Source: Micavibrio sp.
Lineage (GTDB): Bacteria; Pseudomonadota; Alphaproteobacteria; Micavibrionales; UBA9664
Direction: 5' to 3'
Length of the DNA: 64,000 nt
NCBI GenBank assembly: GCA_002699085.1
Contig: PAAR01000012.1
Span: forward strand, 1 to 64,000
The position numbers were made by a program, and so were the translations under genes. Each line of letters starts with the position of its first letter. The first letter of the stretch is position 1. The notes beneath the pieces were generated by a model that was not told the origin of the DNA, did not search any database, and saw nothing but the letters and a program-made list of their open reading frames with translations. This document shows positions 8,560-54,122 of the stretch, one piece after another.

Positions 8560-8669
8560 GACATAGAGCCTAGCATATTTGTATCGGTTACCATCTTATT
8601 TTTTCCTTGCGGAAGAGTGGGTTTCCTTATAGCTGTATTGCCTTACTTTTATATGGGAGGAGACTACAC

Positions 8670-9572
8670 ATGAAAATCGGTGTTTTATCACAGAATAAAG
8701 AACTATATTCGACAAAGCGTATTGCTGAAGCAGCGTTAGCCCGTGGACATGAGGTTAAAGTCATTGACGTGCTGAAAGGTTTTATGCGGATCAACTCGAC
8801 AAAACCTGAATATCACTATGAAGACGAGGTACTAGATTTTGATGCCGTAATTCCACGTGTCGCCGCAAGTGTCACATTCTACGGTACTGCAACGGTGCGT
8901 CAATTTGAGATGGCTGGCGTTTATGCACTCAATGGTTCACTGGCCATTACCCGTGCCCGTGATAAGCTGCGCGCACACCAAATTCTCTCTCAGAAAAAGC
9001 TTGGTATGCCAACAACAGTCTTTGCCCATTCGACAAGCCATGTTGATGAGTTGATTGAAATGGTTGGTGGTGCGCCTCTTATTATTAAATTACTTGAAGG
9101 GGCACAGGGTAAAGGTGTTGTTTTGGCAGAAACACGCAAAGCGGCACAATGTGTTATTGATGCCTTTCGTGGTCTTAATGCCCATTTCTTGGTACAAGAA
9201 TTTGTTAAAGAGTCAAAAGGTGCTGATATTCGTTGCTTTGTTATTGGCGATGATGTTGTCGCTACAATGATGCGCCAAGCCCAAGACGGTGACTTCCGTT
9301 CTAATTTGCATAGTGGCGGAGTAGGTATAAACGTAGAAATAACAGATGAAGAACGAAAACTAGCCCTCGCTGGTGCTCGAGCGATGAGTTTACAAGTAGC
9401 TGGGGTCGATATTATCCGCTCTGATCGTGGGCCAATGATCCTAGAAGTAAACTCTTCTCCTGGTCTTCAAGGCATTGAAGCGACATCTGGTTTAGACATT
9501 GCGACAATGATGATTGAGTATTTGGAAAAACAAGTAGGTTCAGATACGATAGATGACAGCAACAAAGGATAG
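8670..9572 (+). CDS. rimK: RimK-type alpha-L-glutamate ligase (ATP-grasp)
   Basis: A 300-residue ATP-grasp ligase of the RimK family, which adds glutamate residues to the C-terminus of ribosomal protein S6 in well-studied bacteria. The ATG at 8670 is chosen over upstream in-frame codons because GGGAGGAG ends 9 bases before it and the family N-terminus MKIGVLS starts there. Visible elements are [14 protein letters not shown], the ATP-grasp loop [15 protein letters not shown], the segment [20 protein letters not shown] and the metal-binding end [17 protein letters not shown]. It is followed after 11 bases by an aspartoacylase-family gene, so the two are co-transcribed. S6 is the likely but unproven acceptor. 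Confidence 0.93.
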
Positions 9573-9583
9573 AAGCGTCTCAC

Positions 9584-10600
9584 ATGGTAAAGCCCCTTGT
9601 CATTGGTGGTCAAAAAATAGCCGCAGGGTCTCGTAAATCGTTCTCTTTGGAGGTTGCTCAGCTCTATGATTTTACCAAATTGATGCTGCCGATTGAGGTC
9701 ATTCGAGGTACTGAAGATGGCCCAACGCTTTTCGTGAGTGCGGCCATTCATGGCGATGAACTAAATGGTGTCGAAATTATTCGCCGTCTTTTAGCCGACA
9801 AAGCTCTTAACAAGATTAAAGGAACACTCATAGCGGTACCAATTGTTAATGTCTTTGGCTTTAATAATAAAAGTAGATATTTACCCGATAGACGTGATCT
9901 AAATCGTTTTTTCCCCGGTAGTGCAGATGGCTCTATGGCTGCGCAACTTGCCTATGTATTCATGGAAGAAGTGGTTAAAAAATCAACACATGGTATTGAC
10001 CTCCATACCGCAGCCATCCACCGATCTAATTTACCACAAATTCGTGGCTGTCTTGAAGATCCTACTGTCATGGAAATGGCACAAGCCTTTCGTGTTCCTG
10101 TTATACTCAATTCAGATTTACGTGAGGGTTCATTACGTGAAGCCGCCCATAATTGCGGTATTCCCACACTCTTATATGAGGCGGGTGAAGCTACCCGCTT
10201 TAACGAAAATGCCATTAATATTGGCGTCCATGGCATTCTATCTGTGATGCGTGACATTGGTATGTTAGTGCGTTTTGTTAACCCCTTTACGCCTCGTAAA
10301 AGTTTTATTGCCCGTGACAGTCATTGGATCCGTGCGCCACAAAGTGGCATTCTATCAATACACAAACATCTTGGTCGTCGTGTTAAAAAAGGGGAGATTT
10401 TAGGGCAAATTTCAGACCCTTTCGGTCGCATCAAACATGACATTGAAGCAAAACGAACAGGCATCATTATCGGCCAAGCGACTACACCGCTTATTAATAA
10501 GGGTGAGGCAGCCTTCCATATTGCCACTTTTGAAAAGGACATCGCCCTACAAGACAATGTTGATTTTCTTATCAATACGCCTGACGGACTGTCTTCTTAA
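9584..10600 (+). CDS. Succinylglutamate desuccinylase/aspartoacylase-family zinc hydrolase
   Basis: A 338-residue zinc hydrolase of the AstE/aspartoacylase (M14-like) superfamily. Zinc-site candidates are the His and Glu of AAIHGDELNGVE and the His of GIDLHTAAIHRSNL; the substrate-arginine region RYLPDRRDLNRFFPG and the catalytic-Glu region PTLLYEAGEATRF are present. The C-terminal third, APQSGILSIHKHLGRRVKKGEILGQ, looks like a small beta-barrel appended to the peptidase fold. It sits 11 bases after rimK. Homologues beside RimK-like ligases are a recurrent arrangement, and a role in removing or trimming glutamyl additions is an inference. It could instead act on a small acylated amino acid. 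Confidence 0.88.
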   Translation: MVKPLVIGGQKIAAGSRKSFSLEVAQLYDFTKLMLPIEVIRGTEDGPTLFVSAAIHGDELNGVEIIRRLLADKALNKIKGTLIAVPIVNVFGFNNKSRYLPDRRDLNRFFPGSADGSMAAQLAYVFMEEVVKKSTHGIDLHTAAIHRSNLPQIRGCLEDPTVMEMAQAFRVPVILNSDLREGSLREAAHNCGIPTLLYEAGEATRFNENAINIGVHGILSVMRDIGMLVRFVNPFTPRKSFIARDSHWIRAPQSGILSIHKHLGRRVKKGEILGQISDPFGRIKHDIEAKRTGIIIGQATTPLINKGEAAFHIATFEKDIALQDNVDFLINTPDGLSS

Positions 10601-46648: not shown

Positions 46649-47976
46649 TTTCCCTCAACTATCGTTATTTTTTACTTATCTTAACCATGCTCACACTGAC
46701 GGCTTGTGGCTCGACATGGTTTGGTGAAAAAGAAGAGCCGCCCTTACCTGGTGAACGTATCTCTGTGCTTGAATTACAAAATAGCTTAGAGGCAGGGGAT
46801 GTCGCCCTAACAGCACAAGGTTTCATTGTCTCTGATGCTTGGGAAAATCAATTTTGGCCACAAAAAGGTGGTTACGCCAACCATAACATGCAGAATCTTG
46901 TCCTTAATACAGGTGCTTTGAAAAAAGCGTGGAGCGCAGATATTGGCGACGGCAATACAGATCGTCTTCCGCTGACATCACAACCAATTGTCGCTAACGG
47001 CATGTTATTTACCCTAGATAGTAAAAGTCATTTAAAAGCGATGAATGCCAAAACAGGTAAACAAATCTGGCAACGTAATCTAAAACCAAGCAAAGAGGAC
47101 TATGTTATTGGTGGCGGACTTGCTTATGGTGAAGATATGCTCTTTGCAACCACAGGCCGTGATGATGTTTATGCCCTAAACCCAGAAAATGGTGAACCTT
47201 ACTGGCGTGTACGCATTATTAGCCCAGCCCGTGCTGCACCGACAGTTCTAGATGGAAAGCTTTATATTACCACGCTAGATAACCGTCTCTTAACAATGGA
47301 TACAAAAACTGGTTCTGTCCTGTGGGATCATCAAGGCTTAGCAGAAACATCTGCGCTTCTTGGTGGAGCAAGTCCTGCAGCCAACAGCAACGTTGTTTTA
47401 ACTGCCTACTCTTCAGGCGAAATATTTGCGCTCCGCCCTGAAAATGGTTCTGTTGCGTGGTTTGATAATTTAACCTCTGTACGCAATGTGACTAATTTAT
47501 CCAAAATCAGTGACATCCGTGCACTGCCCGTCCTAGACCGTGGTCTTGTTGTAGCAGTTAGCTATGGTGGTCAAATGGTTGCTATCGATGAGCGTACGGG
47601 TGAACGTATTTGGCAACGTGATTTAAGCTCAGCTGAAACCCCTTGGATTGCTGGTAATCTTATTTTTGTTATCACCGCCGACAATAAAATGGTCGCCTTA
47701 GGTCGTGATAGCGGTACATATGCTTGGATCACACCTTTACGAGAATTTGAGAACCAAAAAGATAATATTGGCGCAGTGAGCTGGACAGCCCCTGTATTAG
47801 CTGGCGGACGCCTTATTCTATTCAACAGCCTTGGCGAAGCCGCAGAAATTAACCCTGAAAATGGCGAATTAATCCGCAATTGGGAAATTAAATCTGGCGT
47901 CTCAATAGCCCCTATTGTGGCAGGCGGTATGTTATATGTATTAGCCGATAACGGCACGATATACGCTTATGAATAA
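46645..47976 (+). CDS. bamB: Outer-membrane protein assembly factor BamB
   Basis: A 443-residue lipoprotein of the beta-barrel assembly machinery. The signal peptide ends with the lipobox LTACGST (Cys about 21). The body is a PQQ-like eight-bladed beta-propeller with repeated blades such as [49 protein letters not shown] and [17 protein letters not shown]. It is somewhat longer than E. coli BamB (392). It overlaps both neighbours (yfgM 4 bp, der 8 bp), so the three genes form one operon. Confidence 0.94.
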
Positions 47977-49405
47977 AAAATATTTTAAAGTCGCACTGAT
48001 TGGCCGTCCCAATGTCGGTAAATCCACCTTGTTTAATAAAATTATTGGCAAGCAAATGGCTATCGTTGATGATCGCCCTGGAGTTACACGTGATTTCCGT
48101 GAAGCTGATATTGTCATTCAAGGTAAAGCTGTAACGATGATTGATACGGCTGGTATGGAGAATGAACACGACCAATCAATGTTTGGCCGTATGCGCCAAC
48201 AAACAGAAAAAGCCATTGAGATCGCCGATCTTTTAGTCTTCGTCATGGATGGCCGTGAAGGCGTAACGCCTTTAGATGCGGCCTTTGCCAAAGAATTAAG
48301 AAAGATCAAGAAAGATAAAATCCTCGTTGTCAATAAATGTGAAAGCTCCAAAGGAGATTTCGGTATTGCCGATAGTTACTCACTCGGTTTTGGTGAGCCT
48401 TTACCTGTTTCTGCTGAGCATGGCTTAGGCATCGGCGAATTAAGTGGCTATATCGTCTCTTGCATTCCTGAAGAAAGTGCCAGCGACTATGACGTTGAAG
48501 AGGAAGAAAAAACCGATGAAGATTTTGATCGCTTAGATGCCCTAGAGGGCCAAGAAGAGGTTATCATTCCTGAAATTTCAGAAGAAGAAAAGAAAAAACC
48601 TATTAAACTGGCTATCGTTGGTCGTCCCAATGTCGGTAAATCAACACTGGTTAACGCACTTTTAAATGAGAAACGGGTGATGACTGGCCCAGAGGCGGGC
48701 GTCACACGGGACGCCATTGCCATTGATTGGGTCTATCAAGACACAGCATTCAAACTTGTCGATACCGCAGGCTTGCGCCGTAAAAGTAAAGTCGTTGATC
48801 CTATTGAGAAAATGTCGACAGCCGATTCATATCGAGCCATTCGCTTGGCACAAATTGTTGTATTGGTTATTGACGGGACATTAGGCCTTGATAAACAAGA
48901 TATACAAATTGCCGCCCATGCTATTGAGGAAGGCCGTGCGCTTGTTTTAGCAATTAATAAATGGGACGCTATGGACACACGGGCTGAAACCATGGATCAA
49001 ATCAAAGATCGCATTGAGCTATCTTTGGGTCAGATAAAAGACCTGCCGATACAGATGATTTCAGCACAAAATGCCCGTAATCTTGATAAATTGATGGATC
49101 GTGTATTAGAAGCTTATGATTATTGGAATCGCCGTACCTCAACAGGTAAAGTAAACAGATGGCTGGATGCCGTAGTCAGCCATCACCCGCCACCTCTATA
49201 CCGTGGTAAACCAAATAAATTGCGCTACATGACTCAGATAAATACACGTCCACCGACCTTTGCGATGTGGCTTTCAAGTCCAAAAGACCTGCCAGATAGT
49301 TATGTGCGCTATATGACGAATAAAATACGTGAAGATTTTGATCTGCCAGGTACACCTATCCGTATCCTGCTACGTAAATCTAAAAACCCTTACGCGGATA
49401 GATAA
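47969..49405 (+). CDS. der: Ribosome biogenesis GTPase Der
   Basis: A 478-residue double GTPase for 50S subunit assembly. The two G1 loops are [14 protein letters not shown] (residues 12-25) and [15 protein letters not shown], each with its G3 DTAG and G4 NKCE or NKWD. The G-domain linker is unusually acidic ([20 protein letters not shown]), as is common in this protein. The C-terminal KH-like domain contains [27 protein letters not shown]. The convergent ATP-grasp gene abuts its stop. Confidence 0.96.
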
Positions 49406-50257
49406 TTATACTCTTGAAAGCAAGCCACATTGATTAGCGATCTGGATTGAGATACCTGGGCGAGCGTTAATCTCTAGGATCATTGGGCCTTTATTTTTAT
49501 CAAGCACGATATCGACGCCAATATACCCCAAGCCAGACGCTTTTTGCATCTTGGTTGCCATATCAAGCATATCTTTCCAATAGGGAATTTGGCGCCCTGT
49601 CAGGGGTTTATTGGTTTCTGGATGTACGTCTATGTAACGATTACGTTGAATGGCTGTTGTGGTGATGCCTGTATCCATATCAATGCCGACCCCGACCCCA
49701 CCAGTATGTAGATTAGCCTTACCATCAGAGGCTTTAGAGGGCAGACGTAGCATACCCATCAATACTTTACCCTCCAACACGATAAGACGAATATCTGGAA
49801 CACCTTGATACGCAATCTCATCAAAGATTGGGTCAAACTCCACCATACGCTCAATGACAATTGTGTCATCATGGCCGCCAAGTGAATACATACCAGAAAG
49901 CATGTTTTGAAGATGGTAGCGGGTTTCTTGCCGTGACATGATGTTACCTGAAGCCTTTTTATACCCTGCCATTACTTTCTCGATAATGACCAAGATACCA
50001 TCACCACCAGAGCCACGATCAGGCTTAACGACAAATTTATCATAAGGCTGAACTATATCCTCAAACTGCTTCACTTCATATTGATAGCGAATATTGGCAA
50101 AAAGATCGGGCACATTAAGACCAAGACTCAAAGCGATCTCTTTAGTTTTTAACTTGCTGTCTGCGTTAGGATAAAATTTACGGCGATTATGCGCCAAAAC
50201 AAAATCAAGGTTTCGTTTATTAATGCCAACAATGCCTGCTTCTTTAAATCCAAACAT
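49406..50257 (-). CDS. RimK-like ATP-grasp ligase (alpha-L-glutamate ligase-like)
   Basis: A 283-residue ATP-grasp protein of the alpha-L-glutamate ligase-like family. N-terminal GINKRNLDFVLAHN and NADSKLKTKEIALSLGLNVPD precede the nucleotide-binding loop FVVKPDRGSGGDGILV. Substrate and metal regions are YQGVPDIRLIVLEGKVLMGMLRLPSKASDGKANLHTGGVGVG and the C-terminal GPMILEINARPGISIQIANQCG. It lies 9 bases downstream of the 7TM-transglutaminase gene and is the last gene of a three-gene operon with a retropepsin-like protease. The family is thought to make or attach peptides, but acceptor and amino acid are unknown. Confidence 0.87.
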   Translation of the reverse strand: MFGFKEAGIVGINKRNLDFVLAHNRRKFYPNADSKLKTKEIALSLGLNVPDLFANIRYQYEVKQFEDIVQPYDKFVVKPDRGSGGDGILVIIEKVMAGYKKASGNIMSRQETRYHLQNMLSGMYSLGGHDDTIVIERMVEFDPIFDEIAYQGVPDIRLIVLEGKVLMGMLRLPSKASDGKANLHTGGVGVGIDMDTGITTTAIQRNRYIDVHPETNKPLTGRQIPYWKDMLDMATKMQKASGLGYIGVDIVLDKNKGPMILEINARPGISIQIANQCGLLSRV

Positions 50258-50266
50258 GGTTTATTA

Positions 50267-51859
50267 CTAACCTTTTTGTTGCTTTTCAATCGCCCGCTTT
50301 AAAGCCCAAAAACGCTTATATTCAGACAATTTATAGCCATTATAACGGCCCAATACGAGTGACAAGCCAAACACTAAGAACAAGATTTCTGGGAAAGTGA
50401 AAACGAAATGTTTGATAAACGGATTAATCAAAATAAAGTAAATAATGCACGCAATTAGCATAGAACCGCAAGAAGCCGTCATCGCTTCTTTGCCACCAGA
50501 TTCATCCCACATAGTAGAAACACGCTCAATAAACATAGTGATAATAACAACGGGGAATAACGCAACAGAAAGACCAAGTTGTAAATGCATATCTTTTGAT
50601 AAAACCATAAAAGCGGCAATAAACAAAATCGTTACCGTTAAAATAGCCGATAAACGTGGCACCATCAGCAACCTTAAACGGTCTAAATTAGCACGCACAA
50701 CCATCCCAACAGCGATCAGACTACCAAAGAATAAAATGCCGTAGAACACCCCTGTTTCACGGAAAGCAACAGCAATCAACACGGGCATAAATGTACCAAT
50801 TGTTTTAACACCCACAACCTGTCGCAAAAAAGAAACAAGCAGTGCGCCAATAGGGAAAAGTAACAATACCTGCAAAACTAACTGCTGATCTAAAGGCAAT
50901 GTTTGCAGGGTAAATTTATAGATTAAAGGCTGCTTTTCTTCTGCCTGCCATAGGGCTCGTGTGAACGCACCATCTTGATTACCTTTTACAAGAATATTTA
51001 AACGAGCTTCTTTAAAATTCTTGATTTCATATAGAGGGCTATTCCCTGTCCACCAACGATAGATTTGCAAAGACTTACCCTGAAGCTCTGGATCTGTAAA
51101 AAAGCGCCGCCATACATCATCACTATCATCATTACTGCGAATTTCTACCCAGCGCAGAATATCAGCATTACGTACTTCATCAGCCAGTAAAATACCGTTG
51201 GCAGCACGGCTTTCATACCCTTCAACACGGGCTAATATAACCATCAGGGCGGCTAAATCCTTTGCCTTCATTTGATCCATCAGAAAGGCTGCTTTTTGCG
51301 TGTCTTCACTCAAAATAGCCTGAACTTCTTTTAAAAATGACAGCGGCGTTGATGAACGAGAATCCGCACGATCAATCACGAAATCAATTGTATCGTAGAG
51401 TGCTTGTGTCTCTGGCGATGGATTGGAAATACGGTTTTCAACTGTATAGCGGGTTTTTAAATAATCTGTCTTATCTGTTGCAGGTGCTGCCCCTTGGTTC
51501 GCATCTAAACCATAAATCAGAAAACGTGCATAAATACTTTCACGTGAATCTGGATTGCGCTTAGTTAACAAAAGTTCACGGCCTTTGTTTTGCTTGTCCT
51601 CACCAAAACCATTGGCAATTTTTTGGATGGAAACAACGGAATAACCTTCATTTTCTTCTGGAAGTGTTAATCTAAAAGTAGAAGCATCTTTAGATTTATG
51701 TCCACGCTCTAATGTCCCTTGCAGCTCAATATACCAACTATTTACTGTGGTTTCTGGCGTTACAGGATAGTTCAGCACGTTTATTTTGTAATAAATAATA
51801 CTTGCCGCTAATAAGCCGAACAAAATACAAATAATCAGCGAAATCCAGCTACGCACCAT
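50267..51859 (-). CDS. Inactive-transglutaminase-like protein with seven membrane helices
   Basis: A 530-residue membrane protein. An N-terminal anchor (about 5-25) precedes an extracytoplasmic transglutaminase-like domain (about 35-340). The C-terminal third has seven hydrophobic segments (from VLQVLLLFPIGALLVSFLRQV to ILFLVFGLSLVLGRYNGY). The transglutaminase-like part lacks an obvious Cys-His-Asp triad, since it has no cysteine at all, consistent with an inactive family member (Transglut_i_TM/7TM_transglut type). It stands between the retropepsin-like and ATP-grasp genes. A periplasmic peptide-binding and transport or signalling role is an inference from the fold and neighbours. Confidence 0.85.
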   Translation of the reverse strand: MVRSWISLIICILFGLLAASIIYYKINVLNYPVTPETTVNSWYIELQGTLERGHKSKDASTFRLTLPEENEGYSVVSIQKIANGFGEDKQNKGRELLLTKRNPDSRESIYARFLIYGLDANQGAAPATDKTDYLKTRYTVENRISNPSPETQALYDTIDFVIDRADSRSSTPLSFLKEVQAILSEDTQKAAFLMDQMKAKDLAALMVILARVEGYESRAANGILLADEVRNADILRWVEIRSNDDSDDVWRRFFTDPELQGKSLQIYRWWTGNSPLYEIKNFKEARLNILVKGNQDGAFTRALWQAEEKQPLIYKFTLQTLPLDQQLVLQVLLLFPIGALLVSFLRQVVGVKTIGTFMPVLIAVAFRETGVFYGILFFGSLIAVGMVVRANLDRLRLLMVPRLSAILTVTILFIAAFMVLSKDMHLQLGLSVALFPVVIITMFIERVSTMWDESGGKEAMTASCGSMLIACIIYFILINPFIKHFVFTFPEILFLVFGLSLVLGRYNGYKLSEYKRFWALKRAIEKQQKG

Positions 51860-51893
51860 GTAGGCAATGTCCTTTTAACAAGTAAAGATTGTA

Positions 51894-52487
51894 TTACTCA
51901 GAGGTCTCAAAACTAGGACAATTTGGTCTTGCTGTAAATGCCTTTGATGAATCAACCGCTAAATGGCCTTTAGCCAGCATATTACGCCCTACCAATAAAT
52001 CATAAATAAATACATCACGTTCAGCGAGGTTTACTTCTTCTTCAATTGCAACACCCGCAATACAAAGATTCATTTCAATGACTGGACGACGGAAATAACC
52101 CCCATCACGTTTTTTAATACGAACATAACGTTTAACAGGGTATTTCATCTGTTTCGTATTACCTTCTTTATCAATAATGAGTTTAAAGATGACATCATCT
52201 TTTTTACCCTTTTCTTCATATTCTTTGATCTCAATAATCTCTGCATGAATAGAAGAAGTCTTCGCACCTGTATCCAATTTAGCTTTTATTTTATTATCAA
52301 TTGCTTCAACAAAAACATTCTCAACATAACCAACAACAATAGAATCGGCGGCATTATCCTCAGCATTTGGCGCTGTTTCTTCAGTTAAGCCCGTTTCTGT
52401 TTTTGCATAGGCATGACTGTTCACAGCACAGCCAAGTACTATCAGAAAACATAAACCAATTATTTTATATATGTGCATTAGCTGCAT
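51894..52487 (-). CDS. Retropepsin-like (RimB/DUF785) aspartic protease, exported
   Basis: A 197-residue protein with a signal peptide (about 1-27, ending SHAYAKT). The aspartic protease loop is IKAKLDTGAKTSSIHA, with the DTGA motif, and the body has VKRYVRIKKRDGGYFRRPVIEMNLCIAG and DLLVGRNMLAKGHLAVD. This matches the RimB/DUF785 family of retropepsin-like proteases, which act as dimers. It is the first gene of the operon with the 7TM-transglutaminase-like and ATP-grasp proteins, so a periplasmic trimming of a peptide modification is possible. An N-terminal acidic segment (ETGLTEETAPNAEDNAADS) links the signal peptide to the domain. Confidence 0.85.
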   Translation of the reverse strand: MQLMHIYKIIGLCFLIVLGCAVNSHAYAKTETGLTEETAPNAEDNAADSIVVGYVENVFVEAIDNKIKAKLDTGAKTSSIHAEIIEIKEYEEKGKKDDVIFKLIIDKEGNTKQMKYPVKRYVRIKKRDGGYFRRPVIEMNLCIAGVAIEEEVNLAERDVFIYDLLVGRNMLAKGHLAVDSSKAFTARPNCPSFETSE

Positions 52488-52557
52488 CTTATCCTCTTTA
52501 TCATCTTATTTAGGGGGACACTAATGCATAAAAACGTCTTTAGAATCAATGATAAAA

Positions 52558-53277
52558 TTAATGGGCACGAATGATTTTTCCGTGCTCAACAAAATCTGGT
52601 AGACAACAATCGACGATCTTGTTTGCAACCACCTTAATATCTATAAGATCCTGTTCATCAGGATAGCCACCTGGATACGCTTCTTCCAGCATTTTAGTGT
52701 TCACCGTACCAGGATCAAAAAGATTAGCCTTTAAATTTGGTGACACAGTTTCAGCAGCATATGTTAGAACCATAGCGTTGAGTGCTGTTTTCGTTGCGGC
52801 ATATAACCCCCAAAATGGTTCCGCAAACTGCGCCATTTGAGAACTTATAAAAACAGCACGACCTGCCTCAGATTGCCTCAACAATGGATCTAATGTACGT
52901 ATTAAGGCGTAGTTTGCATGAACATTTACTTTAAACGTATCCTCCCAGACTTTTGGACTTGTGTGGCCAATCGGTCTCAAGCCTCCTAAACTGGCAGCGT
53001 TTCCAATTAAAATATCTAATTGCCCAAAACGTTCAAAAATCGTTGGACCCAAAGCGTCTAAATGCGCTTCTTTTTTGAAATCAAGCGGCATAATCGTTGC
53101 CGCACCGCCGGCTGCCACAATCTCATCATGCGTTTTTTCTAAACCACTAATCGTTCGTGCCGACAATATAGCATGAGCACCCTTAGACGCTAAAGCTTTG
53201 GCCGTTGCAGCACCGATCCCACGAGAAGCACCGCTAATAAACGCTATTTTGTCTTTTAAAGGAAGTGTATCAGGCAT
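52558..53277 (-). CDS. Short-chain dehydrogenase/reductase
   Basis: A 239-residue SDR oxidoreductase. The cofactor motif is ISGASRGIGAATAKALASKG (Rossmann TGxxxGxG with Ser replacing Thr), followed by NAASLGG. The catalytic Ser is in AVFISSQMAQ and the YxxxK motif in YAATKTALNAM. Substrate unknown. An SDR directly after purF is a usual alphaproteobacterial arrangement; here a 281-residue gene has been inserted between them. Its start overlaps the stop of that gene (TAATG). Confidence 0.91.
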   Translation of the reverse strand: MPDTLPLKDKIAFISGASRGIGAATAKALASKGAHAILSARTISGLEKTHDEIVAAGGAATIMPLDFKKEAHLDALGPTIFERFGQLDILIGNAASLGGLRPIGHTSPKVWEDTFKVNVHANYALIRTLDPLLRQSEAGRAVFISSQMAQFAEPFWGLYAATKTALNAMVLTYAAETVSPNLKANLFDPGTVNTKMLEEAYPGGYPDEQDLIDIKVVANKIVDCCLPDFVEHGKIIRAH

Positions 53278-54118
53278 TACTGGTTCGCACTCGCCTTTTC
53301 ACGTTCACGCATGGCCTTCATTACAATGCGTCGCATCTGCATATTTGTTTGCAGTGCTGGATCATCTGCCTTTTGCGCTAAATACTCATAAACATCATTA
53401 TATTGAACGGCCGCATTAATTAACAGACCCTCTAACAATTCGTTTAAGGCACGCTTCATAAAGCTACCATATTCACCCTTATTGATTTCAACCTGATTAA
53501 GAGGCACATCTGTAATGAGCAATGTATCAAACAAACGATCCAAATATACTTTCTCGCCACTTACCGCATAGCCGCCCCAAATTCTTTGTACAGCTTCTGC
53601 TGTATCAATATCATCTTCTATAGGTAGTGTTAAATTTGAGAATGGGCCATCTTCCCCTTCCTTTGGCACGCCGTAAGACCATTGCTTTGTTGTTGCCCAG
53701 TCTTTAGCGATTGAACCAAGCCCTGCGTAACGAGCCGCACGAATAAAAGCGCCAGCTTGATACTGTGTCACATTTAACTGATCTAGCCAGCCTCTTAGAG
53801 CCTGAGGATTCTGTTTAAATAACACCGCAAAAAAGCCTATCGCATAATTCTGCTCTTCTGGTTTTTGATCCATATAGCCCAGTTCAACAAGGCGTGCCAT
53901 CATTTGCGGTGTCAGGTATACAGGCTTATTGAGATAATAATAATTTAAATAGCGTTGTAGCTTTAAGTCTTTTTTCCAAACGGACGAGGCTGAATCTAAT
54001 TCATATTTTTCACCATAAATCTCATTCAGATTATTCAATATAGAATTGCTTTTGCCTTCTTGGGCAAAAACAGGTGATGCACTCAACATCGACAAGGCTA
54101 CAATAAGTGTTAAATATT

Positions 54119-54122
<4 letters not shown>
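53277..54122 (-). CDS. Unknown exported protein, 281 aa
   Basis: A protein of 281 residues, not recognised. It has a signal peptide (about 1-20, ending SPVFAQE), so it is exported to the periplasm. The rest is mainly helical with repeated aromatic/leucine patterns (AIGFFAVLFKQNPQALRGWLDQLN, GLLINAAVQYNDVYEYLAQK). A highly charged C-terminal end (MRRIVMKAMREREKASANQ) completes it. It overlaps purF by 4 bp (ATGA) and the SDR gene by 1 bp, so it is fully embedded in the purF operon. No catalytic motif is obvious; a structural or scaffold role is possible. Confidence 0.72.

Follow-up and report, generated by a model that had tools for sequence, protein, structure and literature searches.

The three-gene operon analysed here is, judged by its sequence, a divergent alphaproteobacterial member of RloABC, a system that has already been described: a study of the rloABC genes of Pseudomonas aeruginosa appeared in 2025 (PA14_41690/41710/41730; PMC12239564). 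The operon lies in a stretch of 64,000 nucleotides from Micavibrio sp. (contig PAAR01000012.1), which is called the window hereafter. The best model, to which we assign a probability of about 0.5, is that poly-glutamate would be made inside the cell, that RloB would present or move it, and that trimming would take place outside. This model is supported by the linkage of the genes, by the conserved catalytic and substrate-binding residues, by a natural fusion of RloB with RloC, and by the gain or loss of the genes as a unit.

The operon and its three products

Three open reading frames on the minus strand, in the order rloA-rloB-rloC, coincide exactly with the span 49406-52487 that a first-pass annotation had called a three-gene operon (Table 1). 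The three genes run in the same direction with gaps of only 34 bp (rloA/rloB) and 9 bp (rloB/rloC), and it is thus very likely that they are transcribed as a single operon. In the region before rloA, a search for a sigma-70-like site found none, and one terminator-like hairpin is located at the end of the SDR gene. The stop codon of rloC abuts that of der, TAA being followed directly by TTA at 49403-49408; this arrangement and the short C-terminus of RloC were absent from the first-pass annotation.

Table 1. Coordinates of the rlo genes, the block that contains them and the genes on either side (positions in the window).
Feature	Position	Strand	Description
rloA	51894..52487	-	exported retropepsin-like aspartic protease, 197 aa
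rloB	50267..51859	-	inactive transglutaminase-like domain plus 7TM, 530 aa
rloC	49406..50257	-	cytoplasmic ATP-grasp, alpha-L-glutamate ligase-like, 283 aa, lacking the C-terminal tail of its relatives
3.15-kb block between the der and SDR stops	49406..52557		precisely missing from the same-genus genome G240
der (EngA), convergent neighbour	47969..49405	+	TIGR03594, 526.6 bits
SDR-family oxidoreductase, located upstream in the same orientation	52558..53277	-	PF00106, 140.4 bits; outside the system

The functional classes proposed by the first-pass annotation, namely a periplasmic DUF785/RimB-type protease, an inactive transglutaminase-like domain on seven helices and a cytoplasmic RimK-like ATP-grasp ligase, are borne out by profile searches and by the residues at the active sites. 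RloA matches PF05618 with 90.2 bits (cut-off 27), and its N-terminus, read by eye, carries a signal with a lipobox-like VLGC and an AYA|K site. The nearest solved structures are 9g58, 9g59 and 2pma. The catalytic Asp72 lies in a DTGA motif, and a pair of cysteines (C142/C190) is present as in periplasmic members. Counted from the active-site Asp via the alignment with 9g58, K70, R120, R134 and R157 take the places of K46, R92, R114 and R137, the residues through which P. aeruginosa RloA contacts poly-Glu. All of 41 RloA-type sequences have Asp72, Gly74, Ala75 and the three Arg, and either Lys or Arg at position 70. The genome also bears an unlinked lipoprotein-type retropepsin paralogue (L003:1387-1968, contig C3).

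RloB matches PF14402 with 272.5 bits and PF14400 with 51.1 bits (cut-offs 25), and consists of an N-terminal helix, a periplasmic transglutaminase-like domain (about 38-297) and a 7TM domain (about 318-520). The catalytic triad is degenerate, with Ala199 and Leu235 at the positions of Cys and His, and Transglut_core scores 21.2 bits, below its cut-off of 23. In the structural model (pLDDT 88.7) the periplasmic part is closest to 3isr (Z 12.6, 220 residues, 4.2 A). About 37 columns of the RloB alignment are invariant, mainly in the membrane domain, and many of them are charged. Neither fold nor profile comparison found a convincing solved relative of the 7TM domain. The fold matches with NqrD/RnfA-type subunits are weak (9eri_A, Z 8.7, 128 residues, 3.2 A; 8acy_D, Z 8.0, 116 residues, 3.3 A) and have no profile support (E 0.36); profile comparison also detected no internal duplication within this domain. 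Our literature search found no paper on PF14402 or PF14400 by name.

RloC exceeds the cut-offs of both PF14397 (271.5 bits, cut-off 31.4) and TIGR02291 (374.4 bits, cut-off 314.2); its score with the RimK family model is 57.5 bits, below the cut-off of 143.4. Its ATP-grasp residues (K35, K78, R157, R171, N182-L-H184, D249, E262 and N264) are intact and are shared by all of 43 sequences. In the alignment with RimK, R157 and N264 fall on R189 and N262, which hold the terminal Glu in a RimK structure. The model of RloC (pLDDT 91.9) is closest to ArgX with LysW/Glu (Z 18.4, 208 residues, 2.6 A), followed by RimK (Z 17.3, 205 residues, 3.0 A). RloC lacks most of the N-terminal domain of RimK, which carries several of the poly-Glu contacts. 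The missing part comprises the region with R64 and S68, and the acceptor side of RloC therefore differs from that of RimK. At the other end, the window RloC stops 5 residues after Gly278, where 42 aligned relatives have a C-terminal stretch of 28-53 residues. Reading through does not restore a real tail, because the profile passes two stop codons for only about 4 extra bits.

The narrower NCBIfam models leave the window copy outside: RloA scores 94.9 bits against the RloA3 cut-off of 210 and falls in none of the groups RloA1/A2/A3, with 42.5 bits against the RimB model (cut-off 200), and RloB scores 248.1 bits against NF052267 (cut-off 900). Since RloA1/A2/A3 and NF052267 name close orthologues, these scores place the window copy within the RloABC system but outside its narrow groups.

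Linkage across loci and origin of the block

The first-pass annotation had held that a joint pathway would be unlikely if the three genes were not found together in relatives or if the ATP-grasp catalytic residues were lost. Neither turned out to be the case: the residues of RloC are kept, rloC is directly downstream of rloB in 87 of the 88 loci with RloB, and rloA is directly upstream of rloB in 75 of the 84 loci with enough upstream sequence (74 by script and L036 by hand, where the rloB frame is split and the gap is just over the limit). The single exception for rloC, L012, has an RloB whose C-terminus is oddly extended and which no RloC adjoins, and its genome (G206) is absent from the genomes with a TIGR02291 match. 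Among the nine loci without an adjoining rloA, eight are beside ubiH-type or gcv housekeeping genes and one (L041) is beside an MscS-type gene; six of their genomes have no PF05618 protein at all, two have only cytoplasmic RimB types, and one has an unlinked exported RloA. Six gammaproteobacterial genomes (loci L056, L059, L065, L070, L096 and L037) combine a dead triad and rloBC with no PF05618 protein found, indicating that RloA is not strictly needed for RloB and RloC to be retained. These six also break a strict rule that a dead triad requires RloA.

It had also been proposed to look for constant extra partners. Clustering of all neighbours in 92 loci revealed no constant fourth partner, the 88 loci with RloB included, and the recurrent neighbours are accounted for by Pseudomonas synteny or by a ubiH-gcv housekeeping block. 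Similarly, the SDR gene was rejected as a partner, because it adjoins der without any rlo gene in G240 and the SDR-like neighbours elsewhere are only 21-28% identical. MscS-type genes are found 30-49 bp upstream of the rlo genes in two loci (L041:5052-5900 and L044:2556-3386) and about 2 kb away in two others (L042 and L047), which weakly fits an osmotic role.

RloB is sporadically distributed, being present in 12 of the 240 genomes of the class and in 2 of the 38 near relatives. The sole genome of the same genus, G240, has orthologues of SDR and der at locus L116, with 61% and 69% identity to those of the window. They converge with 22 bp between their stop codons, and the region is otherwise syntenic. 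The exact absence of the block shows that rloABC is gained or lost as one unit, and because the operon is rare, a gain in the lineage of the window is the simpler reading. Base composition was also considered as an argument for horizontal gain; the GC contents of rloC, rloB and rloA (42.4, 39.8 and 35.7%) against 43% in neighbouring genes are not decisive. In the RloB tree, the window sequence has a long branch (1.82) and is grouped with other Alphaproteobacteria and two Cyanobacteria (support 100/99).

Two further observations concern the same genomes. G240, which lacks rloBC, carries an unlinked exported lipoprotein-type retropepsin (L134:2136-2702), and 54 bp separate its gene from a downstream gene for a Kef-like transporter (Na/H-exchanger plus TrkA_N). 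The window also encodes a 281-aa protein with a signal sequence (53277-54122), located between purF and the SDR gene; it has no match in Pfam or NCBIfam and is kept in synteny in G240 with 48.8% identity.

Variants in relatives

In G220, RloB and RloC are joined in one open frame of 845 codons (L161:6823-9324, G220:C44). In this natural fusion RloC follows the last membrane helix, which fits its expected place in the cytoplasm and suggests that RloB and RloC act in contact. The fusion also means that RloB and RloC could be purified as one chain.

The fusion has moreover an intact Cys-His-Asp triad, as does the RloB of five genomes in family f178, which belongs to another class of the same phylum. 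The motifs are ASCNGKG, SHQWVE and WVPxD, and Transglut_core scores 67.5 and 55.8 bits on the two such RloBs tested. Among 98 aligned RloB rows, the triad Cys occurs only in these six, and none of the six genomes (87-98% complete) shows an exported RloA, four being without a PF05618 protein and two having only RimB types. The five f178 loci (L163, L164, L165, L166 and L167) have the intact-triad RloB followed by RloC, without rloA, and in four of them a PepSY_TM-like membrane protein of 185-187 aa is encoded ahead of rloB. Because a single branch (SH-aLRT 97) separates the six RloBs from the rest of the tree, they count as a single evolutionary contrast, which gives a hint that periplasmic cutting can be the task of either RloA or RloB itself.

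This contrast leads to a more specific proposal, which is tentative and which we consider to have the odds against it: RloB-RloC would be a membrane machine that makes and exports a glutamate polymer, and the outside trimmer would have been swapped. One clade would use the intact cysteine domain of RloB, and most others would rely on the separate retropepsin RloA, their RloB domain having become a dead binding platform. The intact-triad RloBs may also reveal the ligand of the usually dead domain. A different arrangement is seen in G145 (L162:7963-10958), where a 7TM domain without the transglutaminase part is followed by an RloC-like ligase, and where an exported protein of 315 aa that belongs to no Pfam family is encoded ahead of the 7TM gene.

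Proposed mechanism and alternatives

The first-pass annotation stated that no substrate had been established. This needs correction, as the RloA proteases of P. aeruginosa are dimeric retropepsins that cleave stretches of at least eight glutamates in vitro, so that a substrate class is known for the named system (PMC12239564). These proteases are redundantly required for growth in low salt, and the hypo-osmotic lethality of losing all of them is fully rescued by deletion of rloB or rloC (PMC12239564). Mutation of the poly-Glu contacts of RloA abolishes its function in vivo, and a published search found no convincing poly-Glu substrate encoded in the genome (PMC12239564). An earlier suppressor screen hit PA1766-PA1768, the same operon in PAO1 (PMC7314104), and disruption of an RloB-type gene in another bacterium alters the production of membrane vesicles (PMC12096838).

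In the model that we favor, RloC in the cytoplasm would ligate glutamate with ATP into a glutamate-rich adduct, probably oligo- or poly-alpha-Glu. RloC would act where RloB faces the cytoplasm. The 7TM domain of RloB may pass or present the product to the periplasm, or couple its appearance on that side, and the dead transglutaminase-like domain could hold it there. The exported RloA would then cleave poly-Glu and limit its length or amount, and the balance of synthesis and trimming could tune envelope charge and osmotic behaviour. The Pseudomonas epistasis fits this model, since without the cutter the product of RloB and RloC would harm cells in dilute medium. The outline of a product made inside and trimmed outside, already put forward in the first-pass annotation, agrees with the P. 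aeruginosa genetics (PMC12239564) and with residue conservation; the more specific parts are inferred, namely the poly-Glu nature of the RloC product, its transport by RloB, a Pseudomonas-like behaviour of the window copy and a role of the system in envelope charge. Counting against the model, the lack of the RimK N-terminal domain possibly points to a different acceptor or product, RloA is not universally needed, the 7TM domain has no convincing solved relative, and the RloC tail is lost in the window.

The main rival is a reading in which RloB is a sensor or regulator and not a carrier: RloC would modify a cytoplasmic target or RloB itself, RloB would signal the state of the envelope by means of its periplasmic domain, and RloA would act on an independent glutamate-rich periplasmic target. 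A catalytically dead periplasmic domain often indicates that a protein binds or senses something, RloB has no evident transporter fold, and RloA-like proteins stand apart from rloBC both as the unlinked paralogue in the same genome and as the exported protein of G240. However, removing rloB or rloC suppresses the defect of cells without RloA, which is consistent with a single pathway in which RloA acts last, and the many charged residues among the invariant columns of the membrane domain also speak against a sensor role, which we regard as fairly unlikely. It is likewise conceivable, and in our judgment unlikely, that RloC adds another amino acid or caps a small molecule or an envelope polymer, the cleavage of poly-Glu by RloA in vitro reflecting only its kinship with RimB. 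The missing region of R64 and S68, the Z scores of ArgX (which ligates onto LysW) and RimK being tied within about 1, and the Pfam family name "sugar-transfer associated ATP-grasp" are in favor of such a product, but the RloA poly-Glu contacts are needed in vivo in P. aeruginosa (PMC12239564) and are invariant in the RloA proteins linked to RloC.

That the block in the window is an acquired passenger, decaying and not fully functional, appears improbable. Its absence from the only genome of the same genus, its presence in so few relatives, the lost RloC tail and the long RloB branch could be explained in this way, whereas the three frames are open, the invariant residues are kept and the ATP-grasp core is modelled with high confidence. 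Should RloABC prove to synthesise and shorten a glutamate polymer or adduct in the envelope, bacteria would have a so far unrecognised means of adjusting envelope charge and osmotic behaviour. Very little is known of poly-glutamylation in bacteria, the named poly-glutamylated bacterial proteins being only RpsF and a Legionella ubiquitin ligase (PMC12239564). In Pseudomonas, RloABC affects antibiotic sensitivity and biofilms. What makes the present analysis of interest is the set of comparative variants, through which the role of RloB can be put to the test.

Comparison with known systems

The window operon is like RloABC of P. aeruginosa in gene order and domains, in the signal, the DTGA motif, all four poly-Glu contacts and the Cys pair of RloA, in the dead transglutaminase domain on a 7TM protein, and in the ATP-grasp ligase. 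It differs in that its RloB is only about 30% identical and its RloC has no C-terminal tail.

The RimB-RimK system, which glutamylates ribosomal protein S6, similarly combines a retropepsin with a RimK-type ATP-grasp ligase; however, RimB is cytoplasmic whereas the window RloA has a signal, and the rim system has no counterpart of RloB. The window has a RimK of its own (8667-9572, NF007764 410.1 bits) followed by an AstE/AspA-type hydrolase, the two together spanning 8667-10600, and a second RimK-family ligase (211.7 bits) is encoded elsewhere in the genome (L005:1486-2457, contig C3). Because the only PF05618 proteins of this genome are the two exported ones, RimK is here without RimB. Relatives from the same order, as well as G220, encode RimB and RimK as a single fused protein (L124, L125, L126 and L194), a type of hybrid protein that has already been described (PMC11957791).

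TgpA-type membrane transglutaminases (6g49) resemble RloB in having a periplasmic transglutaminase-like domain on a multi-helix protein, with a weak profile match (E 0.033). Unlike TgpA, RloB is without the Cys and His and has a separate PF14402 membrane domain.
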